Shown here one piece after another: positions 11 through 12,167 of a DNA stretch of 39,031 nt (position 1 is its first letter; every line of letters begins with the position of its first letter). This DNA is from Kiritimatiellia bacterium. GTDB taxonomy: Bacteria > Verrucomicrobiota > Kiritimatiellia > RFP12 > UBA1067. The translations under genes and the position numbers were made by a program. Under the pieces are notes generated by a model. It saw only the letters and a list, made by a program, of their open reading frames with translations, was not told the DNA's origin and did not search any database. The stretch is from contig JAQIBS010000128.1 of assembly GCA_027858965.1 (NCBI GenBank), positions 1-39,031 on the forward strand, written 5' to 3'.

Positions 11-1370
11 GTTTCAATCCACGCGCCCGCGAAGGGCGCGACGAAGAGCCTGCATGGACATTGGTTCTCGCTGACCTTGTTTCAATCCACGCGCCCGCGA
101 AGGGCGCGACGTGTCGGTGTCGCTGAATGATGCGAGCTCGCCAAGTTTCAATCCACGCGCCCGCGAAGGGCGCGACAAGCCACCGCGCGCACATCGAGGA
201 ACTTGTCAAACAGTTTCAATCCACGCGCCCGCGAAGGGCGCGACAACTGAAAAAATCTTATCCCCATGTGCCAGCGTGTTTCAATCCACGCGCCCGCGAA
301 GGGCGCGACAGTCAATACCCGTGCATCCTCAATGCCGGCCGAAAAGTTTCAATCCACGCGCCCGCGAAGGGCGCGACAATCGGCCAGTATGTGGATCAGA
401 AGCTCATCAGGTTTCAATCCACGCGCCCGCGAAGGGCGCGACCAGCGGCCTCAGCTGAGAGGTCGAGAGAGAAGGGTTTCAATCCACGCGCCCGCGAAGG
501 GCGCGACGTTCCGCCTGGAAGCTGATGAGCCGGCCACCGTTGTTTCAATCCACGCGCCCGCGAAGGGCGCGACCTGTCACAAGTAGGTTATCCATTACGA
601 TAGACGATGTTTCAATCCACGCGCCCGCGAAGGGCGCGACTCTTTGAGTCTTTTGTTAAGTTCGAGCGTTGCATTGTTTCAATCCACGCGCCCGCGAAGG
701 GCGCGACACCAAGGTTCTTCCGATGGGGTTCCGACGAGCGTTTCAATCCACGCGCCCGCGAAGGGCGCGACGGAAACGGATCTACGATAATGTATGCAGG
801 ATGGGGTTTCAATCCACGCGCCCGCGAAGGGCGCGACTGGCGTGGCAACCGTGAGAGGTTAATCAATCATGGTTTCAATCCACGCGCCCGCGAAGGGCGC
901 GACTGGCATTTATGATATGGGCTTGCCGCCTCATCCAGGTTTCAATCCACGCGCCCGCGAAGGGCGCGACAGATGATTATGAGAGAGCATGGTATTGGAT
1001 GGTTGTTTCAATCCACGCGCCCGCGAAGGGCGCGACGACAGTATTGCGATGATATGCCGGGATGTGATGCGGTTTCAATCCACGCGCCCGCGAAGGGCGC
1101 GACCCTCAATGGGTGACGTGTCCGGATCAGACAATGACGTTTCAATCCACGCGCCCGCGAAGGGCGCGACCCGTGGAGCACTGATTAAAAACTCACCAAT
1201 CAAAGTTTCAATCCACGCGCCCGCGAAGGGCGCGACCAGCGGTAATCCATTCATCAATTCCGTTCCCCTTGTTTCAATCCACGCGCCCGCGAAGGGCGCG
1301 ACACGGACATCCCGCACAAGTAGCCTCTTCGTAAATCGGTTTCAATCCACGCGCCCGCGAAGGGCGCGAC
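11..1370 (-). CRISPR. Type I-C CRISPR array, 21 repeats, continues past left edge
   Basis: Twenty-one copies of a 32-bp repeat, identical as far as I can read, start at 11, 79, 145, 213, 278, 346, 411, 476, 542, 609, 676, 740, 806, 872, 939, 1005, 1072, 1139, 1205, 1271 and 1339. They are separated by 20 spacers of 32-36 bp; bases 1-10 are the end of another spacer. Read on the minus strand the repeat has a GC-rich stem (CGCGCCC pairing with GGGCGCG) and ends in GTGGATTGAAAC, the form typical of I-C repeats. Transcription is therefore right to left, the same direction as the cas genes, with the leader at the right. No decay is seen toward the left, so the distal end lies outside the window. 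I saw no spacer matching another part of the window. Confidence 0.99.
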
Positions 1371-1565: not shown

Positions 1566-1859
1566 TCAAATTACCAAAATGTCAGTTTGCAGGTCGGGCA
1601 CACCTTTAATCCCATGGTGCTCAACCTTCTTCTGCCACCCCGCGCCCAGCTGATAAAAGCGAAGGCTGTCTTCATCTTCAGCATAAATATTCAGCAGCTG
1701 CGTTCTCAGATCCACCCATTGAGCAGGTTCTACCAGACACTCAAATACTGAGTTCTGCACACGCTGTCCGAAATTAAGGCAGGTTTTTGCAACGCGCCTC
1801 AGTCGCTTTCGTCCTTCAGGCGTGGTTGTTGCCACATCGTATGTAACCAGAACCATCAT
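1566..1859 (-). CDS. cas2: CRISPR-associated endonuclease Cas2
   Basis: This 97-residue protein forms the Cas1-Cas2 spacer integration complex with its neighbour. The N-terminal strand MVLVTYDV carries the conserved Cas2 aspartate (residue 8), and the length and ferredoxin-like pattern fit the family. The reading frame is open further upstream, but those extra residues come from low-complexity intergenic repeats. The start at 1859 is preceded by a GAGGTG ribosome site 7 bases away; the adjacent in-frame ATG at 1856 is an equal alternative. About 120 bp of repeat-rich sequence separates it from cas1, an unusually wide gap for these two genes. Confidence 0.95.
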   Translation of the reverse strand: MMVLVTYDVATTTPEGRKRLRRVAKTCLNFGQRVQNSVFECLVEPAQWVDLRTQLLNIYAEDEDSLRFYQLGAGWQKKVEHHGIKGVPDLQTDILVI

Positions 1860-1939
1860 TATACACACCTCACTATCAAGCTTGTTCTCTACTCTGCGTT
1901 CTCCGCGTCTCTGCGAGGACATCATTCCGAAGCGCACCT

Positions 1940-1974
1940 AATTCTCAATTCTCAATTCTCAATTCTCAATTCTC
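1940..1974. repeat. Tandem heptamer AATTCTC x5
   Basis: Five perfect head-to-tail copies of AATTCTC lie in the cas1-cas2 gap. They are preceded by CTCTGCG-like units (about 1890-1918). See the finding on intergenic short tandem repeats. Confidence 0.9.
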
Positions 1975-1979
1975 CCCCA

Positions 1980-3005
1980 CTATCTCCAGAAAAAGGGTGG
2001 ATATGCATCCAGATCGCCCCGCATATATCTTGCCAAAATCTGAGCCTGTAGAAAGGGCAGTAAACCCAGGTGTATCCGATCATTGGTAAATGGATGTGTG
2101 ATTTCATCCTGCTTGCGTTTCTGCCAGGCAACAAGCACTGTTTTACGTCCTTTATCATTAAGAAGCACACTGCCGGAATCAGAGACATCAAAATCTTTTA
2201 CAGACAGCTGCTGTCGATTTACCAGAGTCAAGGCAAGGCGGTCAGCCCAGAAAGTGCGCATCTCCTCCATCATGTCCAGAGCAAGACTGTGCCGTCCGGG
2301 TCGGTCTCTATGTAAAAAACCGACAGACGGATCCAGGCCTACTGATGCCAATGCACCTTTCATCTCATTATAGAGCAGAGTGTAAGCAAAACTCAGAAGC
2401 GCATTAATTCGGTCCATAGGAGGTCTGCGGCTACGTCCGTTGAAAACAAATTCCTCCTTATCAACGGTTATCATCTTATTAAAAACACTGAAATACACCT
2501 TGGCTGCATCGCCCTCTATTCCGCGCATTTTATCAGAATCCAATGCGGTTCCTCCAAGTCGTCCAATGCTGCCTTTCAAATGGGCGACTGCATTTTTCAA
2601 ATCCTCATCATCAGGCCTTTCACGAGCTGTCCTCAGCAGAACCTGGCGGGCATTAACTATCTTCCCTGCCACAATGGAACGAACCACAGAGCGTGTTTTT
2701 TCCACATCATCGGCCCATCTATACTGAGTTCTACGCAGCAGCACATTACCGGAAACAGGGCCATCAAAATGTCCGAGATAATAGCCATGCTCGGAAAGCA
2801 TACTCACAGAAAGACCATGTTTTGCACATGAACCCAGCAGAAAGGGACTGCACAGAACATTGCCGAATGTGACTATGCTGCAGAGAGAGAGCAGAGGCAC
2901 ACGGAGCTTCGTTTCCTTTTCAATCTGAACGACAACCGACTCCCCCTCTTTCTTAAGGTAGGCCCCCTGCGTTCTAATATAAAGAGTGTTGAGAATACGT
3001 TTCAT
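1980..3005 (-). CDS. cas1: CRISPR-associated integrase Cas1 (type I-C)
   Basis: Cas1 is the metal-dependent integrase that inserts new spacers at the leader end of the array. The 341-residue length is normal for I-C. The catalytic triad is visible as E164 (RGIEGDAA), H232 (GFLHRDRP) and D244 (LALDMMEE) in the C-terminal helical domain, after an N-terminal beta domain. The ATG overlaps the cas4 stop codon by 4 bp, so the two are probably translationally coupled, in keeping with joint action of Cas4 and Cas1 in PAM-aware spacer selection. Confidence 0.98.
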   Translation of the reverse strand: MKRILNTLYIRTQGAYLKKEGESVVVQIEKETKLRVPLLSLCSIVTFGNVLCSPFLLGSCAKHGLSVSMLSEHGYYLGHFDGPVSGNVLLRRTQYRWADDVEKTRSVVRSIVAGKIVNARQVLLRTARERPDDEDLKNAVAHLKGSIGRLGGTALDSDKMRGIEGDAAKVYFSVFNKMITVDKEEFVFNGRSRRPPMDRINALLSFAYTLLYNEMKGALASVGLDPSVGFLHRDRPGRHSLALDMMEEMRTFWADRLALTLVNRQQLSVKDFDVSDSGSVLLNDKGRKTVLVAWQKRKQDEITHPFTNDRIHLGLLPFLQAQILARYMRGDLDAYPPFFWR

Positions 3006-3640
3006 TCGTCATCTTCCTTTTTCAGAAAACGTTCAATATATCGTTCTGCACTAATGAAAACTTTTTTCGGCATGCAGATATCATACAGAGAGCAGGAACG
3101 ACAACGCGGTGAATATACCGGTGCCGGAGTTACACAGGAATTAAGAAGCTGGTGCACTTTTCGGCACAGCTCTGCGGTTTCAATTCTTAAAGCATCCGTC
3201 AACGCAACCGGTTCACGCCTGCGGCTGCGTCCATAAAAGAGAGCACCTTCAGGAACAGCAACTTTGAGCATGGATTCCAGGCAGAGAGCCTGTGCGCAGA
3301 GCTGCACCCGATCGCAGTTACCCTCTTTCGGTTTTCCATGTTTGTATTCAACGGGAAAAGGAACAGAGCTGCCGTCAGGCTGTCTATGGAACTCCACCAC
3401 ATCGGCCACACCGGTGATGCCTAATTCAAGAGAACGCAGAGCAAGACCGCGGGCTATGTGCACATCACCACGTGTTTCCGAGTCGCCGGAGTGAGCTTTT
3501 TCGTGCATGGCACGTCCTTCGGCAGTGAGCATATTCTCCTGCCACACGCGTTCAATGTGAATCAAGGCACACTGACGCGGGCAGAAGGAGAAATGCTGCA
3601 GCGCGGAGATTGGAAAAAGCTCATTCTCGGGACAGCTCAT
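3002..3640 (-). CDS. cas4: CRISPR-associated exonuclease Cas4
   Basis: Cas4 is a RecB-family exonuclease with an iron-sulfur cluster that trims prespacers and helps enforce PAM choice and orientation. In this 212-residue protein the cluster ligands are C20 (SFCPRQC) and C180, C183 and C189 (RCRSCSLYDIC). The nuclease motifs are D80 (GVADVVEF), E98-x-K100 (PVEYKHGK) and Q113. Length is typical. It overlaps cas1 downstream and the HEAT-nuclease gene upstream by 4 bp each, so these three form a tightly coupled block. Confidence 0.97.
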   Translation of the reverse strand: MSCPENELFPISALQHFSFCPRQCALIHIERVWQENMLTAEGRAMHEKAHSGDSETRGDVHIARGLALRSLELGITGVADVVEFHRQPDGSSVPFPVEYKHGKPKEGNCDRVQLCAQALCLESMLKVAVPEGALFYGRSRRREPVALTDALRIETAELCRKVHQLLNSCVTPAPVYSPRCRSCSLYDICMPKKVFISAERYIERFLKKEDDE

Positions 3641-4503
3641 CGAAGTTTCTCCAGCTTTTCCTGAAGCAATTTTTGCATAAGCGGTTTATCATCGGGATAA
3701 AGAGAGATAAGTTTCTTTCCCTGCTGCTGATATAATTTCTGTTTTTTAAGCATACCGATTTTATAGTCGGTGGTATTCATTCCCCAGTATTCAATATAGA
3801 CATCAAATTCCGGCAAGTAGAAATCGGGTCGAATGGCATATCCATCCAGAATGCGGAAACGCTCATCATAGCGATACTTGATGTCTGCGGCATCCAGAAT
3901 TTCGCAGATACGCCGCTCACCATCAGACTGCACCCAGGTACCATCCTTAGAGCGGATTTTTTTTTGTAACTCGACCTTCGTTTCAAAGTTGCGTCGTTCC
4001 AGAAAGACTTCATCAAAGCAGTAGTTACAGAAAGAGCGCTGGAACGCCCTCTGCGAGCGCACGTATTCATCATGCTGCAGTTCAACTCCGCAGCGCTGGC
4101 AGCAATGCACGGCTTGTCTCTCTTCGATTTCAACAGCAGTGTTAATCATCTTGCCGGCGGTAAGTACACTGCGTTTTACATAATCCTTTTCAACCGGACT
4201 TTTGTAAAGATCGCGCAGATCAGACAGAGCCTCTTTTGATGCCGCACCAAACGCACCAAGAGCCTTAGCCGCATATTGCCGCACCTGCGGATGCTCATCC
4301 TGCAGCAGAGGGTGAAGGGCTGCGACAGCAGAAGCAGCGGACACGATCTCCGCCAGCTTTCCGAGTGCCGAGGCAGCCAGGCGCCTGACAAGTGCGGATT
4401 GCGAACTGGTCAGCGGCACAAGTTCATGCAAAGCCTGCGGATCTACGCTGTTGCCCAGTTCCGTAGCCCTAGCTGCCAATTTCTTTTCGTTTGAGGTGTT
4501 CAT
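3637..4503 (-). CDS. HEAT-repeat, zinc-site, PD-(D/E)XK-like nuclease protein within the cas operon
   Basis: This is not one of the standard type I-C genes. Three parts can be read in the 288 residues. Residues about 20-100 form HEAT-like helical pairs (SALVRRLAASALGKL, HPQVRQYAAKALGAF). Residues 135-162 hold a four-cysteine zinc site (C135/C138 and C159/C162). Residues about 190-288 resemble the PD-(D/E)XK endonuclease fold: E196 in GERRICEIL, D227 in RPDFYLPEFDVYIEYWG, E238 with tryptophan where the usual lysine sits, then YKIGMLKKQKLY and KKLISLYP. The catalytic lysine may have moved to K253/K254; this is inference from related helicase-tail nuclease domains. The 4-bp overlap with cas4 suggests co-translation and a role beside adaptation. 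DNA binding or a repair role unrelated to CRISPR remains possible. Confidence 0.85.
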   Translation of the reverse strand: MNTSNEKKLAARATELGNSVDPQALHELVPLTSSQSALVRRLAASALGKLAEIVSAASAVAALHPLLQDEHPQVRQYAAKALGAFGAASKEALSDLRDLYKSPVEKDYVKRSVLTAGKMINTAVEIEERQAVHCCQRCGVELQHDEYVRSQRAFQRSFCNYCFDEVFLERRNFETKVELQKKIRSKDGTWVQSDGERRICEILDAADIKYRYDERFRILDGYAIRPDFYLPEFDVYIEYWGMNTTDYKIGMLKKQKLYQQQGKKLISLYPDDKPLMQKLLQEKLEKLR

Positions 4504-4605: not shown

Positions 4606-5421
4606 TTAAAACCCATCGATCACTTCAGGGATTAATCCATCCATATTGTTCAATTTAATTGATCCATCAGGCTCAACGTTCAAACTTCTATGAACTTTTG
4701 CAGAAGAGTATTGTCCATGAGGGCAATCATGCTGCCACCACACAACCTTCAGCACCTCCATGCTTCCTTCTGGCCTCGCGCTGGATGCATCATTCTCAAA
4801 GAGCTTTGGCAGAATACCTTTAATAACGAGAGCGTCTTCGTCGCTAAATCCCGTTTTCTGCGCTAACTGCGGATTCATGCTTCCATAGAACGAATATATC
4901 GCTTCATCAACGCGATGTTTCATGCCCATTGTATCCGCAGATTTTTTACTTCCATCCCCATCGCCACTTACACTCTTAGTTATCTGAGTGCTAGTTATGC
5001 TAACCCTATCAAGTGAGAATGCTGTCTGAACAGAAACTGGGCCTCGCACAGGTATTGAAACGCCCGCACCTTTTTTATCTCCACTATAAGCAAACACCTG
5101 TCCAAAAGCCCGAACATCAAACCACTTTTCACATGCAATCTTTACATTCTCATCAACCTTCTTTTTCTTTTCCAACACCTTATCAGCTCTGGCACGTAAA
5201 GAGGGACAATCATCAACTTTATTATCATCGGATTGCACAAAAATCTCCTGGCCGCTCTCCATTAAACGATTTCTAATCTTTCGTTTAATACAAACATCTG
5301 AAACCTCACCAGTCCCGCTATAGTTTGTTCTTGGTCTATTCCCATTAAGTGGGTCGCCATTCGGGTTCGCATTTTTTACACTAAAAACAACTGCGAAATC
5401 AATTTTCTTCGTTAAACTCAT
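4606..5421 (-). CDS. cas7c: Cas7c (Csd2), Cascade backbone
   Basis: Cas7c subunits polymerise along the crRNA spacer to form the I-C Cascade backbone. The N-terminus (IDFAVVFSVKNANPNGDPLNGNRPR) is the hallmark RAMP start of the Csd2/Csh2 family, and FSLDRVSITSTQITKS with the later GMKHRVDEAIYSFYGSMNP fits as well. At 271 residues it is near the usual length. It overlaps cas8c upstream by 4 bp. Downstream, 102 bp without a gene (4504-4605) separate it from the HEAT-nuclease gene. By eye it is more AT-rich than the adaptation genes. Confidence 0.97.
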   Translation of the reverse strand: MSLTKKIDFAVVFSVKNANPNGDPLNGNRPRTNYSGTGEVSDVCIKRKIRNRLMESGQEIFVQSDDNKVDDCPSLRARADKVLEKKKKVDENVKIACEKWFDVRAFGQVFAYSGDKKGAGVSIPVRGPVSVQTAFSLDRVSITSTQITKSVSGDGDGSKKSADTMGMKHRVDEAIYSFYGSMNPQLAQKTGFSDEDALVIKGILPKLFENDASSARPEGSMEVLKVVWWQHDCPHGQYSSAKVHRSLNVEPDGSIKLNNMDGLIPEVIDGF

Positions 5422-5798
5422 TCTACTTCTCCTTTATTTTCTTTACTACTCTTAAATAACTCTGCGCGTTGACAATGAAATCCGAGCAAAAACTCTCCTG
5501 ACAATGGAGTTTTATCATCATTGAAATCAACAGGATCAAATGCATTCATTATCTCCAATAGCTCATCATCATGTTTTCTTATCTTTGATCCAAGGCGTGC
5601 TTTATATGGGTGCAATCCCAACTCAAGCGTACGCCAGGCACTACATGGATGATCCGCGAAATACGACATTAGCCGAGCCGCATTTGTTTGTCGTTTCTCC
5701 CCTGCTTGATTTAAAGCCCACTGCTCTATCCCATCTGCAACGGCCAACAAACGACCAAACAGATAAGAGCGTGTTTTTCGTTCTCTATCTAATGCCAT
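5418..5798 (-). CDS. cas11c: Cas11c small subunit from an internal start within cas8c
   Basis: Type I-C systems are known to make their small subunit by internal initiation within cas8c. Codon 512 is an in-frame ATG at 5798, starting MALDRERKTRSYLFGRLLAV. An AGGAG ribosome site (5808-5812) lies 9 bases upstream inside the coding sequence. The 126-residue helical product matches the length expected of Cas11c, which lines the Cascade belly and stabilises the displaced strand. The ribosome site and ATG are seen; separate translation is inferred from family knowledge. Confidence 0.75.
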   Translation of the reverse strand: MALDRERKTRSYLFGRLLAVADGIEQWALNQAGEKRQTNAARLMSYFADHPCSAWRTLELGLHPYKARLGSKIRKHDDELLEIMNAFDPVDFNDDKTPLSGEFLLGFHCQRAELFKSSKENKGEVE

Positions 5799-7331
5799 AA
5801 CATAATTCTCCTTTTCTTTTGTATAATGTTTATAAACTGCACAAGTAATCCCCAAAACTTTTTCCCACTCCCAGTGATCAAGACAATTTCTTTTCACGGC
5901 CCTGTGAATACAGGATTCTACAATATCTTGCGGTATTTGAGAGCTCTCTAAAATACACGGTAACAATCGCATAATTGTTGCACGTTTCAATTTGTCGTCA
6001 AGCTTATCACCGTAAGCTGCTTTTGCAATATCATGAGGCGAAGGAGCGCCGGTAAACTTCTTATCATTGCTATATCTTTGCAGCCAGAAACAACTAGAGT
6101 GCCAAGCATCAACGCGCTTAAGGAATTCAGCCCCCTGCAATTCACGATAAAGCACTATTGCCATGCGACCAGGTGTCGCAGAATCTAAAACCATTACAAC
6201 AACTTCTTGGACAGATCCCAACGCAGCAAAATAGCCAGAGATACGCTGTGTCAACTTGACTCCAAACTCTTGTGCAGTATACACACAATCGTCATCATCT
6301 TGGATTGCAATGAAGAGAGAATTCGTATTATCCATAATCTTTGGAATATCAGCGCCTGATACTGCCCAAGCGACAATTGCCAAATCGCCACTTTTCCATC
6401 CTTGCCTGTCTAACAACCAGCGCAGGGCATTATGCGCCTTCTGAGAAACATCAAAGCCAACACCACAAACCTGTGATTCTTCAGTAAAACGTCCTCGGTA
6501 TGTAAAACCGGAAGAATCATTGGACGATATTAACTTAGCCTTATCCCCCGGATTTCTGATTTTACCAGGGTGAGACTCAGCCAAAACGGTATTTTTACCT
6601 GTCACAAAGCACAAACCATTCTCTTGATTCAGGCTAGTATAATATGCAACCCAGCTTTCCTGCAATTCACGATCTGTTTGCGTAGAACTATCCAAAAAGC
6701 CAGCCTTTTCAACTCGCCATCTAACAAATGCATCCGACTGCCATTGACCACGTTTCCCTTTTCCATCCACTTTCCCTGACAACAACCCAAATATTGCGGG
6801 TTTTGCCTCTTCCGATTCCCACTGATAAATCAATTTACCTGCACGTTCACCTCCTTCTGATATCCTCAAGATAGAGGCATCTACCAGATCTTTGATCAAC
6901 GTCCCCTTTTCAACATATGCTAGCACGGCACAGGCCTTCCAATGGGAGTTCTCGGAATCACACCAACGCTTCAGATCTCTTATATAATCGGAGTTCGGCT
7001 TTTGTGGCTCTTTTGAAAATCCAACCGTAACTGCTCCTCCATAGTCAGTAAGATTTCCGGATAAATATTGCAGTTTATCGGCTAAAGGGTGATGTATTGG
7101 CTTACTTCCTGACCGAGTAGCAGACTTTTCAGTACATGGGACAATAGTTTTGGAATCTTCTTTAGAAATTACTTTTGCTCCACGAAACAGACCCATATCA
7201 TCAATCGTAACTTCTATATGAGCCACCTGCGTTGTATGACAAATCGGCAGCAAAACATCATGATTATCAGCATTCATCGAAGCACTGAAATTATTTTCAT
7301 ACGTTTCATAAAGTTTATTAATCCAACTCAT
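5418..7331 (-). CDS. cas8c: Cas8c (Csd1), Cascade large subunit
   Basis: Cas8c is the large subunit that recognises the PAM and recruits Cas3. The start at 7331 gives MSWINKLYETYENN, the usual Csd1 opening, with an AGGAGG ribosome site 8-9 bases upstream; it overlaps the end of cas5c by 14 bp. The 637-residue length is normal. Conserved Csd1 segments are visible (ENGLCFVTGKNTVLAESHPGKIRNPGDKAKLIS, SYLFGRLLAVADG, HPYKARLGSK). The C-terminal fifth probably also gives a separate Cas11c protein from an internal start. Confidence 0.97.
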   Translation of the reverse strand: MSWINKLYETYENNFSASMNADNHDVLLPICHTTQVAHIEVTIDDMGLFRGAKVISKEDSKTIVPCTEKSATRSGSKPIHHPLADKLQYLSGNLTDYGGAVTVGFSKEPQKPNSDYIRDLKRWCDSENSHWKACAVLAYVEKGTLIKDLVDASILRISEGGERAGKLIYQWESEEAKPAIFGLLSGKVDGKGKRGQWQSDAFVRWRVEKAGFLDSSTQTDRELQESWVAYYTSLNQENGLCFVTGKNTVLAESHPGKIRNPGDKAKLISSNDSSGFTYRGRFTEESQVCGVGFDVSQKAHNALRWLLDRQGWKSGDLAIVAWAVSGADIPKIMDNTNSLFIAIQDDDDCVYTAQEFGVKLTQRISGYFAALGSVQEVVVMVLDSATPGRMAIVLYRELQGAEFLKRVDAWHSSCFWLQRYSNDKKFTGAPSPHDIAKAAYGDKLDDKLKRATIMRLLPCILESSQIPQDIVESCIHRAVKRNCLDHWEWEKVLGITCAVYKHYTKEKENYVMALDRERKTRSYLFGRLLAVADGIEQWALNQAGEKRQTNAARLMSYFADHPCSAWRTLELGLHPYKARLGSKIRKHDDELLEIMNAFDPVDFNDDKTPLSGEFLLGFHCQRAELFKSSKENKGEVE

Positions 7332-8019
7332 TTTTAATGGCCTCCTCTTGCAATCCAATCGATGCTGGTGGATTTGGTTCCATTTCACGAACAAACTTAG
7401 TAATCACACAATCTTCTGGTCGGATAAACTCAACAATCCCTTTCTTGACTACAGGCATCCAAAAGCGACTGTGCAGTTCATTCACACCTGTTTCATCAGG
7501 ATAATCAAAACCATGAAACATTCCCCCATAGCACAACTCATGAATATCATCATAAGCTCCCTCTCCTTCTCCAAAAGCACACTCTTCCACGTAAGCTTGG
7601 CACTCGCGCGTACCAAGAAATATGTCCTGTCGTCCTCCTTTATCAACCATTCTATTAGCAATTGCGAAATGCTTCCCATTAATGCGGTCACCCTCCATAT
7701 CCGGCCGAAATTCGTTCCACTCAAAATGAGCCTGCACCTGATATTCTACGTCTGCAAGATAGGTATAGATTGCTAACGTATTACCTCCCCCGTAATTCAA
7801 AGGCTTCATATTCCTTGACTGAGTTTGAATCGGCTTTATTACACGCACCTTATCCACCACCCAAATAATCGTTGGCTTCCAATATATTGATTTCAAAACT
7901 CCTTTCAAAGCCTCATACGTAGGAATGTGATACGAACATTTTTCACCACCAATCCTGCTTACAGGATCAGTAAACAGCGCCATAGGCCCGCTTACCTTAA
8001 ACTCTATGCTATTTTTCAT
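7318..8019 (-). CDS. cas5c: Cas5c (Cas5d), pre-crRNA endoribonuclease
   Basis: In type I-C, which lacks Cas6, Cas5c cleaves the repeat at the base of its hairpin and stays bound to the 5' handle. Residues Y46, K116 and H117 (GVLKSIYW and NGKHFAIANR) fall at the same positions as the catalytic residues reported for the Bacillus halodurans enzyme, so the protein appears active. It has 233 residues, and a TAAGGAG ribosome site precedes the ATG. It starts 9 bp after cas3 and overlaps the start of cas8c by 14 bp. Confidence 0.97.
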   Translation of the reverse strand: MKNSIEFKVSGPMALFTDPVSRIGGEKCSYHIPTYEALKGVLKSIYWKPTIIWVVDKVRVIKPIQTQSRNMKPLNYGGGNTLAIYTYLADVEYQVQAHFEWNEFRPDMEGDRINGKHFAIANRMVDKGGRQDIFLGTRECQAYVEECAFGEGEGAYDDIHELCYGGMFHGFDYPDETGVNELHSRFWMPVVKKGIVEFIRPEDCVITKFVREMEPNPPASIGLQEEAIKNELD

Positions 8020-8028
8020 TGTTTCTCC

Positions 8029-10512
8029 TTACACTTCACAAAATGGCATCAATGATACCGGCTCCAAATTCAAACCTGTTTGTGGGCAATAATAATGCTC
8101 AGCTAACGCATATATCCCGCTGCCCTGCCTAACTTCACAAAGAGCTGTCCTTTGTTCCATCAATTTATCCCGTTCATATGAAAAGATATTAACGGAATAT
8201 TGCTGTAACTTTTTCCGCAGAACCTTTTCCATTTTAAAGTCAGTATTTAAGAGCAAATCTGCGATTAGCTTTTCCGCATATCCCTTTTTATCTCTCACCC
8301 CTTTATAGGGCACTATCACCCCTATTGTTGGAGCATCAATGACTTCAAATTTATCGCATGCACTCTTAAATGATTGCTTTAAAATTCTCTTCCCATCAAT
8401 ACCGCCTGCACGAGCGGATTTCTCAGACAACCTATTTGTCGATAACAATGAAAGCAAGTCATCATCGCGTCCGAAATCAGAACGGTGCAGGTTGTAGACC
8501 ATTTCATTTGATCTCTCATAAAAGTAGTAAGAGTAATAAAGCTCCACTGCTTTCTTCGATATAAGGCTGTTATCAAACAAATCAGGATCCTCATTGAAAT
8601 CATTGATTACTCGCTCTGCCTTTTCCTGCGCGATTCGTATATCAGGTAGTTTATCCAAATTTTCGCCTTTCAAATTGACTATGACAACCTTCCCGCCTGA
8701 CGACCTTTTGTTTTCCCTATTGCATCTACCAGCGGCTTGAGCTATCGAATCTATCCCCGCTAAAGAACGGAAGACACAACCAAAATCCACATCAACACCC
8801 GCCTCAATTAATTGTGTACTGACACAAACAACGGGTTTTGGATTTACGGGATCTAGATGTTTTTTCAGTTCACTTAAAACATCCATGCGATGAGCTGGAC
8901 ACATCTTGGTACTTAAGAAAAATCTTTTGGCGGACAACTCTTTAATTGATCCAAAAATGCGCTCAGCATCTTTTTTTGTGTTTGTAATTACCAGCACACT
9001 ACCATAAGCAGCGACCTTCTCTGCTATTGCATCTTGCATTTCATCCACGCACCAGCCGCTTGGCTTACAGCTATTCACTACCTCAACTTTTCTAAACTCC
9101 TTAAAGAGCGATTGATCCCTGACCAATTCCATATCTTCACAATAAGAGACAGCTCCTTTTTTCGGATCAACATCATGTAACAGGGGTTGTGTCGCCGTAC
9201 AAAACACAACTGAAGACGAACACACATTTGTCAGAAAATTTATTGCGTTATTAAATAAGTGCACAGTTTTAATCGGAAGAGTCTGAACCTCGTCAAAGAT
9301 TACAACAGAATTAGCTAATGCATGCATTCTTCGTGCGCCTCGTGTACGTCCTCCAAAGAGTGATTCGAGTAGCTGTACTGACGTTGTGAATACAATTGGT
9401 GCATCCCAATTTTCGGATAACAACCTATTTAGCTTTGTATCTTTTGATTCTGCTAAATTCGAGTGGTGTTCCAAAACTATTTCATCTACATCTACCCCCT
9501 TAATCCCATTAAATATTTTTCTTACCGTTTCCGCATTTTGATCAATGATAGATGTATATGGGATTACATAGATTATGCGCGACATCTTGTGTTTGCGAGC
9601 ATGATGAAGGGCAAAGCGCAGAACAGCCAGCGTTTTACCCCCACCAGTAGGAACTGTTAAATAAAACAGCCCTTTTGCAGACATGGCCTTTTGATAACAT
9701 GCATCGGAAACAATAGAACGTTTGATATTTATCTCCGAATCAATGATAAAATCAGAGTTGTGCACTTCAAATATATCAACAAGAACAGACCAATCAAGAT
9801 ATTGCCCTAATGCACGTAGTGATTTGTTGTTTTTTAATTCAAAATCTGCCGTATCAGTTCTATCCGCATCAATTAGGCAGCTAAATAGATAACGAGCCAC
9901 TAGAAAAAGCCCAAAGTTACATAATTTATTGTATTGAGCAGCCTTATTGACTTCAGCGATTATTCTAGAAATCTCCGCTGTTAATTCATCAAAGCGGATA
10001 TTTTTTACAGCTTCAATTATCTCTGCATCAGCCACATGATTAACCTTATCAACACTTGCATACTCTAATAATTTTTGCATCCTTTTTGAATATGCATCTT
10101 CCCCATCAATCGATAGGCAATCAATCAGCCCTCCATGGTGAGAACAAATACACAACGTAATAAATTCTTTTGTAGCTTGATCAAGCGCGGTAACACATTC
10201 CATATTATTGCAAACCCACTGAGCGCCTATAGTTGCATGATCAATCTTGCCTTTTAATTTTCGATAGTTAACATAACAGGGATGCGCCGGTTTATAAAGA
10301 CCCACAGAAGATTTGATATATTTCTGAAAAAGTTCGCCATACTTTCCAAAATCATGAAGAAGCCCCATAGTTCTGCCGCAGGCTGATAAACCCAACTTTG
10401 CAGAAAGCCTCTCACACGTATCGCTAACAGCCAACAAGTGCTCCTTAACCTCTTGGATTTCATCATCCTCTTTCCGATAATGAGCCACATTAATTATATC
10501 AAGATCTCTCAC
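8029..10512 (-). CDS. cas3: Cas3 nuclease-helicase
   Basis: Cas3 is recruited to Cascade-bound DNA, then unwinds and degrades it. The N-terminal HD nuclease domain shows H53-D54 (GLLHDFGKYGELF) and a histidine pair near 125 (CSHHGGLID). The helicase has Walker A TGGGKT (289-294), DEVQ (407-410) and the later AAGRCNRENKRS arginine motif. I place the start at the GTG at 10512 (827 residues) because a perfect AGGAGG (10519-10524) lies 6 bases upstream; an 11-residue longer TTG start at 10545 has no ribosome site. It is the first cas gene of the operon. Its 5' region holds the candidate guide-RNA target. Confidence 0.97.
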   Translation of the reverse strand: MRDLDIINVAHYRKEDDEIQEVKEHLLAVSDTCERLSAKLGLSACGRTMGLLHDFGKYGELFQKYIKSSVGLYKPAHPCYVNYRKLKGKIDHATIGAQWVCNNMECVTALDQATKEFITLCICSHHGGLIDCLSIDGEDAYSKRMQKLLEYASVDKVNHVADAEIIEAVKNIRFDELTAEISRIIAEVNKAAQYNKLCNFGLFLVARYLFSCLIDADRTDTADFELKNNKSLRALGQYLDWSVLVDIFEVHNSDFIIDSEINIKRSIVSDACYQKAMSAKGLFYLTVPTGGGKTLAVLRFALHHARKHKMSRIIYVIPYTSIIDQNAETVRKIFNGIKGVDVDEIVLEHHSNLAESKDTKLNRLLSENWDAPIVFTTSVQLLESLFGGRTRGARRMHALANSVVIFDEVQTLPIKTVHLFNNAINFLTNVCSSSVVFCTATQPLLHDVDPKKGAVSYCEDMELVRDQSLFKEFRKVEVVNSCKPSGWCVDEMQDAIAEKVAAYGSVLVITNTKKDAERIFGSIKELSAKRFFLSTKMCPAHRMDVLSELKKHLDPVNPKPVVCVSTQLIEAGVDVDFGCVFRSLAGIDSIAQAAGRCNRENKRSSGGKVVIVNLKGENLDKLPDIRIAQEKAERVINDFNEDPDLFDNSLISKKAVELYYSYYFYERSNEMVYNLHRSDFGRDDDLLSLLSTNRLSEKSARAGGIDGKRILKQSFKSACDKFEVIDAPTIGVIVPYKGVRDKKGYAEKLIADLLLNTDFKMEKVLRKKLQQYSVNIFSYERDKLMEQRTALCEVRQGSGIYALAEHYYCPQTGLNLEPVSLMPFCEV

Positions 10513-10649
10513 TGCAATCCTCCTGTGAGATATGCTCAATTCCAATTAAACAATAATCATTCATCTTTTGTTTATCCTAATAAAATCAGCCAGCTTGCCT
10601 CTTTAAAAATGACAATAACAAATTTATTCATCCACCGTCAATTATTTCT

Positions 10650-10669
10650 TTCATTTATGTATAAATATA
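10650..10669 (+). promoter_or_regulatory. Candidate Cascade operator upstream of cas3 (TTC PAM plus partial protospacer)
   Basis: TTC (10650-10652), the type I-C PAM, is followed by 17 bases (10653-10669) that equal the pseudo-spacer at 10778-10794 except at positions 6 and 12. The site lies 141-157 bp upstream of the cas3 start codon in very AT-rich DNA with several -10-like hexamers on the minus strand (TATAAT, TATTAT, TATACA), so bound Cascade could block transcription of the operon. I could not fix one promoter with a good -35. Confidence 0.7.
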
Positions 10670-10747
10670 ATAAAGATTATAAATATTACCTTGCGAACTA
10701 ACATAAATTCTGTTTCACTAACGCAATTCGTTGGGGTATCAGGTACT

Positions 10748-10818
10748 TTAAGCCTCGCCCTTAATGTGGATTGAAACATTTACGTATACATATAGGCGAA
10801 GGTAACACTTCGCCTTTT
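10748..10818 (+). ncRNA. Candidate crRNA-like autorepressor RNA (CreR-type)
   Basis: The plus strand carries GTGGATTGAAAC (10766-10777), identical to the last 12 bases of the CRISPR repeat and covering the 11-nt crRNA 5' handle known for I-C. Upstream, CGCCCTT is left from the repeat but the stem is lost. A 17-nt pseudo-spacer (10778-10794) follows, then a terminator hairpin. The pseudo-spacer matches a TTC-flanked site upstream of cas3 at 15 of 17 bases, with mismatches only at 6 and 12. A weak promoter, TTCACT (10714-10719), 17 bp, TATCAG (10737-10742), would start the RNA near 10748. Short guides of this design, letting Cascade repress cas genes without cleavage, are known in other CRISPR types. 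The transcript itself is inferred. Confidence 0.65.
10794..10818 (+). terminator. Intrinsic terminator of the candidate guide RNA
   Basis: An 8-bp perfect stem (AGGCGAAG 10794-10801 with CTTCGCCT 10808-10815), a 6-base loop and a short T run follow the pseudo-spacer directly. It points along the plus strand, away from the cas operon. It could double as the 3' hairpin of the guide RNA. Confidence 0.7.
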
Positions 10819-10909
10819 CCACTCCAACTTCCGCACCTTCCAACCAACCTCGCGACTTCAACTTATTTCCAAAATACCACATCAACAGTGACATAACGTG
10901 TCACTGGAA

Positions 10910-11896
10910 TTATTTTTCTATAACATTTTTCATCGCCAGAATCTCTTCATAAACGAGGGTTTTGAGCTGTTTCGGCGAGATAATTTCAACATCGCGGCCC
11001 ATGCTGAGTATCCACTGTATAAGATTGTAGAAGGGTTTTCTTCCAGCCGAACTGACCGGAAAAGCGATTTCAAAGCCATTCCTGATATTTTTTGTCGTCT
11101 GCTGTGGATGAAACTGACGTCCGGCAAACAACTCCCCCATATCTCCAGTGATTCTCAACCGGACGTTCTTTAATTTTTCAGTGCTGCCGAAACTGCCGAA
11201 GCTGCATTCGGTGATTTTCTTGATGTCAAATCCGCTGTTTATCTCAAAGACCTCTTTAAGAACCTTTACCGTACTGATACGGTATAATTGAAACTGGCTG
11301 ACTCGGTTTCTCAGATGATCCCATGCATAGAGATACCAGTCGCCCTGCATATTGAGAATGTGATATGGATCAATCCGACGTTTACTCTGTTCACCGGAGT
11401 GACGACTCTGATAAACGATCTCCAATGAACGGCTGTTACGGATTGCTCCAAGCAAGCGGCTCCAGACCTTTTCATTCACCTCCAGAACCGGCTCGGGGGC
11501 AAAGCTGAGTATTCCGCCTGAGGGATAGTCCGGGTGCACATGAATGGTTTTTGAGAGTGAACCGGCGATTTTGTTGAAAATCTGTGTCAACCGCTCCTCT
11601 AAGGGGGTGCCGCGATAAAGTCCTACGGCTCGCCTGGCAATGAGAAGAGAAAATAGATCTCGTTCCGTGATTGGTATGGAGGGCATCTCCCAGTTGGGTA
11701 ATGAGTAAAAATAGCCTCGCTCCGGATTGTGCTCCAACGGAGCTTCAAATCGGTAGCGAAGGTCATCAAGATCACGCTGAATAGTACGTTTGGTGACCTC
11801 GAGTTTCTCTGCCAGCAGCATTCGAGTAACTTTTGTCCGCCCGCGAATATAGGAATCTATCTTAAACAACCGCTCATACTGCGCATTAACCGCCAT
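10910..11896 (-). CDS. WYL-domain transcriptional regulator next to the cas operon
   Basis: This 328-residue protein is a YafY/WYL-type regulator. An N-terminal winged helix-turn-helix (about 20-55, MLLAEKLEVTKRTIQRDLDDL) precedes a WYL ligand-sensing domain (about 140-215, IDPYHILNMQGDWYLYAWDHL) and a C-terminal extension. The start at 11896 has GGGAGGA 4 bases upstream; the longer open frame would need a TTG. It reads toward cas3 and stops about 400 bp before it, with the candidate guide RNA and cas promoter in between. WYL regulators are often linked to CRISPR and other defence loci, and control of this cas operon is the natural guess, but no binding site can be named. Confidence 0.9.
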   Translation of the reverse strand: MAVNAQYERLFKIDSYIRGRTKVTRMLLAEKLEVTKRTIQRDLDDLRYRFEAPLEHNPERGYFYSLPNWEMPSIPITERDLFSLLIARRAVGLYRGTPLEERLTQIFNKIAGSLSKTIHVHPDYPSGGILSFAPEPVLEVNEKVWSRLLGAIRNSRSLEIVYQSRHSGEQSKRRIDPYHILNMQGDWYLYAWDHLRNRVSQFQLYRISTVKVLKEVFEINSGFDIKKITECSFGSFGSTEKLKNVRLRITGDMGELFAGRQFHPQQTTKNIRNGFEIAFPVSSAGRKPFYNLIQWILSMGRDVEIISPKQLKTLVYEEILAMKNVIEK

Positions 11897-12167
11897 ATTG
11901 TCCTCCCTCATAATAATATTATTAAATATAACGTATTTTATCAGTCCAGACAAGGGACTAGGGCATAATTCGGATTTTTTTGCAGAAGAATCGGAAGGTT
12001 ACTACGGCTCAGCAGGAGCTGGCCCCTCGCACACTTTGCTTTAAAGGTCAGCCGCATAGCGACTGACTTCCGGTGTTGCTTCGCTATGCTCACTGTGCAT
12101 GACCTAAGGTGCGGACTTCAGTATTTCATCGTTTTCATCTCTGCACTCTCAGCGTCTCTGCGAGCAC
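11897..12167. other. Gene-free gap
   Basis: I see no gene here. It holds a stretch near 12000-12110 (CTACGGCTCAGCAGGAGCTG) that looks like an intergenic repeat, and CTCTGCG-type short repeats near 12140-12172 like those between cas1 and cas2. Confidence 0.5.

Follow-up and report, generated by a model that had tools for sequence, protein, structure and literature searches.

The window analysed here, which is the whole stretch of 39,031 nucleotides, contains a complete type I-C gene set (cas3, cas5c, cas8c, cas7c, cas4, cas1c and cas2). The operon is located on the minus strand, where cas3, cas5c, cas8c, cas7c, an accessory gene, cas4, cas1c and cas2 are followed by the CRISPR array. The first gene of the operon, cas3 (8029..10545; P0001, 827 aa), likely starts at the GTG at 10512, which comes after AGGAGG. 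The genes for the type I-C Cascade occupy 4606..8019 on the same strand (cas5c, 7318-8019; cas8c, 5418-7394; cas7c, 4606-5421), and the calls were made with the profiles TIGR01876, TIGR01863 and TIGR02589, respectively, all of which scored over their cut-offs. A profile search also placed cas4, cas1c and cas2 at 1566..3640 (minus strand). The accessory gene between cas7c and cas4 (3637-4503) encodes HEAT repeats and belongs to the PADLOC family HEAT_CxxC_PDDEXK (E 1.7e-159). The array itself (11..1370) has 21 repeats of the unit GTCGCGCCCTTCGCGGGCGCGTGGATTGAAAC, all on the minus strand, and the same repeat was found again at one end of contig C31. Beyond the gap upstream of cas3 lies a gene for an HTH-WYL-WCX regulator (10910..11953, minus strand), which is read in the same direction as the cas genes.

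Within the WYL-cas3 gap, the 12-mer GTGGATTGAAAC at 10766-10777 on the plus strand, opposite to cas, is identical to the final 12 nt of the array repeat and is its sole copy outside the array within the window. It includes a predicted 11-nt 5' handle, TGGATTGAAAC (10767..10777, plus strand), the same as the 3'-terminal 11 nt of the array repeat; the crRNA tag in type I-C is 11 nt long. A putative guide (psi-S) of 17 nt, ATTTACGTATACATATA, follows directly after the handle (10778..10794, plus strand). Its target, or protospacer, is found at 10653..10669 on the plus strand, where 15 of 17 positions are matched and the only mismatches are at positions 6 and 12, and a TTC PAM directly precedes it (10650..10652, plus strand). 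The preliminary description of this DNA had claimed both the lone repeat end on the strand opposite to cas and the 17-base match behind TTC with its two exceptions, and both are confirmed at these positions. In Cascade structures every sixth guide base is flipped out, and the two mismatches fit this pattern. For type I-C of another species, TTC and TTT are given as PAM (PMC10865793).

The handle and guide are flanked by two potential stems. Upstream, a degenerate repeat stem (psi-R; 10746..10766, plus strand) can be formed by the 7-nt arms CTTTAAG and CTTAATG (10746-10752 with 10760-10766) around a 7-nt loop with one U-U mismatch, and it ends 11 nt before the guide, as the stem of the array repeat does. 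This stem is weak to marginal (local fold of -2.6 kcal/mol), and it is not part of the minimum free energy fold of the longer piece 10740-10830. Downstream, a hairpin and a short T run (10794..10818, plus strand) are the predicted terminator of the RNA, with arms at 10794-10801 and 10808-10815, a 6-nt loop and a following TTT; the first base of the stem is the last base of the guide. Of the perfect 8-bp terminator hairpin proposed earlier, the 8-bp stem 3' of the guide and the TTT after it are thus present, whereas the consensus terminator scan of the window did not list it. No promoter for the predicted RNA stands out in the consensus promoter scan of the window, and an Rfam scan of 10500-11000 gave no family at E up to 1. 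With respect to the features by which CreR genes are recognised, the element lies by the cas locus, in the WYL-cas3 gap, it has a repeat-like potential 5' handle, and its spacer is partly complementary to the cas promoter, itself a consensus prediction, next to a PAM.

The bare 12-mer is not significant alone, because single copies are also present on contigs C79 and C139 of the same genome. The combination of handle, guide, PAM and place is significant. The 364-nt gap was shuffled 20,000 times with dinucleotide counts preserved and the guide kept constant. Of the 15 positions outside the sixth-base phase, all 15 agree at the real site, whereas the best TTC site of a shuffled gap had 13 in agreement twice and never 14 or 15. 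Moreover, TTC plus guide with positions 6 and 12 left free has this one exact site only in the genome (5.93 Mb).

The predicted cas promoter, TTGACG-N18-TATTGT (10612..10641, minus strand), is a consensus match only, and the PAM is situated 8 nt upstream of its -35 box. Promoter matches in the window are no more frequent than expected by chance (2 found against 2.1 expected from shuffles), and on the far side of the target there is a candidate that scores better, ATGTTA-N17-TATAAT. Directly after the WYL gene, at 10870-10906, a palindrome GTGACA..TGTCAC is followed by TGTGGTA. This arrangement is common to the window, L077 (as GTGACA..TGGCAC) and L121, and a similar one was seen by eye in L109. 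It looks like an operator and promoter under WYL control, and a transcript from such a promoter in the window would cross the guide RNA antisense, heading to cas3.

For a comparison of the same region in other genomes, 206 loci were collected by Cas8c or Cas3 similarity, without each being confirmed as type I-C. They came from same-phylum genomes (PF09709 present in 82 of 387; 80 regions taken), from same-class genomes (the Cas3 of the window found in 79 of 345; 40 regions taken) and from genome_contigs with a Cas3 alignment (the best 80 of at least 587 confirmed stretches). Six loci without cas3 and 16 without upstream sequence, among which L103 and L204 are one place, were left out, so that 184 were usable; an earlier, narrower count covered 143 of 162 loci.

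Besides the window, five loci have a handle and a guide matching a TTC site upstream of cas3, namely L007 (same family as the window), L089 (same order), L077 and L210 (same class) and L178 (Clostridiaceae bacterium JG1575). Under a looser rule two more are included: L111, from the same phylum, with mismatches at positions 8, 12 and 18, and L186, from a Synergistaceae MAG, with a TTT PAM and mismatches at 6, 7, 12 and 16-18. Judged from the organism names, the loci with the element presumably belong to three phyla. The eight loci represent seven lineages including the window, and correspond to seven changes on the Cas3 tree of 184. The guide sequences differ between lineages and each is matched to the upstream region of its own cas3. 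The covariation of guide and target that the preliminary description had proposed to look for in related genomes is accordingly seen in L007, L089, L077/L210 and L178, and in a looser form in L111 and L186; L121 and L127, where a handle stands alone and no target turned up near cas3, count against it.

The match is retained although the orientation of the element to cas3 varies, being opposite in the window, L077, L210 and L178 and the same in L007, L089, L111 and L186. A stem folds downstream of the guide in all eight loci. The T run after it is clear in L089, L077 and L186, short in the window and poor or absent in L007, L111, L210 and L178, and hence not every one of these hairpins is a textbook terminator. 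An apparent two-repeat mini-array with a different first spacer is found about 400-500 nt upstream of cas3 in L111. The scores of the eight element loci range from 11.5 to 18, against at most 9.0 in 18 comparison loci, which are mostly near relatives.

The targets of the eight loci lie between -216 and +37 relative to the estimated cas3 start, an interval chosen post hoc from a scan of about 2,300 nt in seven loci and 956 nt in L210. Several of them are placed close to predicted promoters. For instance, the PAM of L007 is, as in the window, 8 nt upstream of a predicted -35 box (TTGAAT-N17-TATAAC), that of L089 is 1 nt from TTGCAT-N17-TATTAT, and that of L178 overlaps TTGAAT-N17-TATACT. The target of L077 and L210 spans the -10 box of the predicted promoter TTGACA-N16-TATTAT, and in L186 there is an overlap with TTGACA-N17-TACACT. 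The promoter touched by the target is the top-scoring one in L007, L178, L077, L210 and L186 and the second-best in the window and L089. For L111 the scoring lists no promoter at the target; TTGACA with a weak -10 box is visible there by eye.

TTC was compared with the other trinucleotides over all handle-like sites. Handles lying 55-90 nt from a second handle were taken to be array members and discarded, which most likely explains why the handle of L111, recovered by other scans, is missing from the filtered lists; L186, with its TTT PAM, does not enter the TTC counts. With mismatches allowed freely at 6, 12 and 18, the 106 handle-like sites that passed this filter, in 75 of the 184 loci, yielded 6 TTC matches (in 6 loci), and the other 63 trinucleotides combined also yielded 6. 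In the seven loci counted, roughly 2-3% of positions are TTC. Without any phase rule and at a threshold of at least 13/16, TTC accounted for 6 rows from 5 loci (including the window, and L007 twice) against 4 for all others, or for 5 against 4 with the window excluded; at 12/16 or more the numbers were 7 and 27. The mismatches in the 6 TTC rows fall at position 6 in 5 of 6 and at position 12 in 4 of 6, and are spread in the other rows. At least one TTC row may be due to chance, since L007 has a second TTC site (13/16, with mismatches at 5, 8 and 12). In eight offset controls the guide start was displaced from the handle, by -9 to +30 nt, and none of the 49 rows returned had TTC.

The handles also follow the arrays of their own loci. 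Six loci include an array in the fetched region, and in all of them the first 11 nt of the handle equal the local array repeat end; this identity spans four repeat-end variants, some of which are present in only 6-7% of 94 loci. The last base of the handle is unlike that of the array in four of these six (L178, L089, L111 and L007). An exception is L210, whose handle is GTGGATTGAAAT while the array elsewhere in its genome has GCGGATTGAAA; no array lies within the fetched region of L186.

L077 and L210 belong to one genus and have closely related Cas3 proteins (0.07 apart on the tree). Guide and target of both loci share the same bases at positions 1-5, 7-11, 13 and 14. Each locus has a mismatch at position 6, and at position 12 L077 reads T/T and L210 A/G. 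The repeat stems of the two loci differ in sequence with the pairing intact in both. Such a pattern would be expected from selection on a Cascade pairing that is blind to every sixth base, but since the pair is closely related, the single changed position is weak evidence alone.

The distribution of the element is patchy. No such element was detected in 176 of the 184 loci, including those of the near Cas3 relatives L202, L120, L102 and L230, and the gap of the window is therefore without a close orthologue in this set. Among named Cas3 relatives, those closest to the window come from Verrucomicrobia and Kiritimatiellia MAGs; the nearest Cas3 relatives share at most 57% identity, and a search of the DNA of relatives (L202, L120, L230, L102 and L109) revealed no element. 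Lone handles with no target near cas3 occur about 41 nt upstream of cas3 in L121, where a lone repeat with a paired stem was noted by eye, and about 136 nt upstream in L127, and these two may be aimed elsewhere. Seven plasmid I-C loci (7 of 11 records) contained no full case. One of them, L273 on a Paenibacillus amylolyticus plasmid, has a lone repeat, a guide and a hairpin between cas3 and cas5c (4770-4850), with only 10/16 positions matched at the best TTC site for this guide. Two other plasmid I-C operons, L275 and L276, have listed genes that start at cas5c and no cas3 in the annotation, from a gene table that is incomplete. Among viral_contigs, the handle plus guide pattern has one exact match, on phage contig L271 (14118-14141), which carries the letters of the target at positions 6 and 12 and shows no visible repeat-like stem; by a rough estimate for this AT-rich pattern with 22 set bases, the copy is within chance and was set aside.

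From these observations, the element in the gap is very probably a type I-C CreR, by which Cascade would repress its own operon, with transcription, loading and repression as predicted steps. A short RNA would be transcribed on the plus strand from about 10748 to 10818, and Cas5c would cut it at the base of the stem. Cascade assembled on this RNA may then find TTC with the 17 mostly matched bases and occupy the cas promoter, repressing it presumably by blocking RNA polymerase. Binding would probably proceed without cutting by Cas3, given a pairing of just 17 nt with mismatches at positions 6 and 12. By analogy with CreRs of other subtypes, repression might be relieved when array crRNAs or an anti-CRISPR draw Cascade away. 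A Cas3-less I-C Cascade from Neisseria lactamica is reported to repress a gene when its spacer lies over the -10 box (PMC10865793). With regard to the first reading of this DNA, the guide-target part is supported and the part on regulation is still a prediction.

The two similar 17-mers could instead be tandem operators for a protein such as the WYL regulator, with an incidental handle-like 12-mer. Direct repeats often mark operators, and both copies here are AT-rich, upstream of cas3 and near the WYL gene. In such a case, the repeated unit would hardly be expected to begin exactly at the end of the handle and exactly after TTC, nor would moving the guide start of every handle by -9 to +30 nt be expected to remove all TTC matches at 13/16, as it does. 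The repeated sequence moreover changes between lineages while the layout is constant, and a different palindrome by the WYL gene is common to the window, L077 and L121. We therefore regard tandem operators as improbable.

Even less credit is given to a leftover of an earlier CRISPR array, or an isolated repeat, whose match to the target arose by chance. In favour of this, two other contigs of the genome each carry the 12-mer once, and L121 and L127 have lone handles for which no target was found, whereas the shuffle test, the hairpin immediately 3' of the guide and the recurrence with its controls are all against it. Equally hard to sustain is a CreA-type guide of an addiction module, which would repress not cas3 but some toxic RNA or small gene located within the gap. 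The layout of creA genes is the same, including a one-repeat form with a terminator (PMC8501985). Against this, no separate transcription unit is evident in the 108-141 nt (depending on the start) from the target to cas3, where a very small toxic RNA would still fit; in addition, Rfam has no match in the gap, and the targets of all eight loci are close upstream of cas3.

The CreR reading connects the element to several systems that are already described. CreRs autorepress cas genes and are reported for I-B, I-E and V-A (PMC13131331), and a review describes them as widespread in type I and V-A (PMC12737573). The likeness lies in a crRNA-like RNA that partly matches the cas promoter and in a Cas effector that represses its own genes (PMC13131331, PMC12737573); for the element in the window it is limited to sequence features, repression being predicted. 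The subtype, however, is different, as Cas5c replaces Cas6 in the crRNA processing of I-C (PMC7684278), and so is the composition of one repeat and a hairpin, while CreR is termed a mini-CRISPR RNA in PMC12948488. With CreA, in the one-repeat form of CreTA from Haloarcula hispanica I-B, the element shares psi-R, psi-S, a terminator, a partial match and a TTC PAM (PMC8501985), as well as a degenerate repeat of the ectopic kind (PMC9458426). The target of CreA is a toxin RNA, whereas that of the window lies by the cas promoter.

Lone repeats are also a feature of Racrs, or solitary repeat units, of which RacrIC1 inhibits type I-C (PMC10651486); these are virus-encoded repeat mimics, whereas the element in the window stands beside host cas genes and has a matched guide.

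Standalone repeats and mini-arrays whose spacers partly match cas promoters have reportedly been described by Shmakov et al. in 2023, and this partial match is what they have in common with our element. The tracr-L study is said to describe a natural single guide of Cas9 systems with which the effector represses its own operon. It is similar in being a natural guide for self-repression of an operon and differs in both the effector and the RNA. Our literature search, whose coverage stopped short of Liu et al. 2023 and Shmakov et al. 2023, found no I-C CreR, and we claim no priority.

We somewhat favour a broader proposal, in which the self-repressing guides of I-C systems form a class of their own, present in at least three phyla and usually built from a single degenerate repeat and a hairpin that replaces the second repeat. 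In these short guides, mismatches at positions 6 and 12 would have evolved to follow the six-base step of Cas7, allowing Cascade to bind its own promoter without licensing Cas3. The class would repeatedly arise and be re-aimed, and I-C cas operons would thereby be self-metering. If true, RNA-guided autoregulation of cas genes would extend to a CRISPR subtype that ranks among the commonest, and would do so compactly, mostly without a second repeat. These natural guides would then let evolution reveal the cost of a mismatch at each Cascade position, and the arrangement suggests a possible route for I-C systems to sense the loss of Cascade to anti-CRISPRs.
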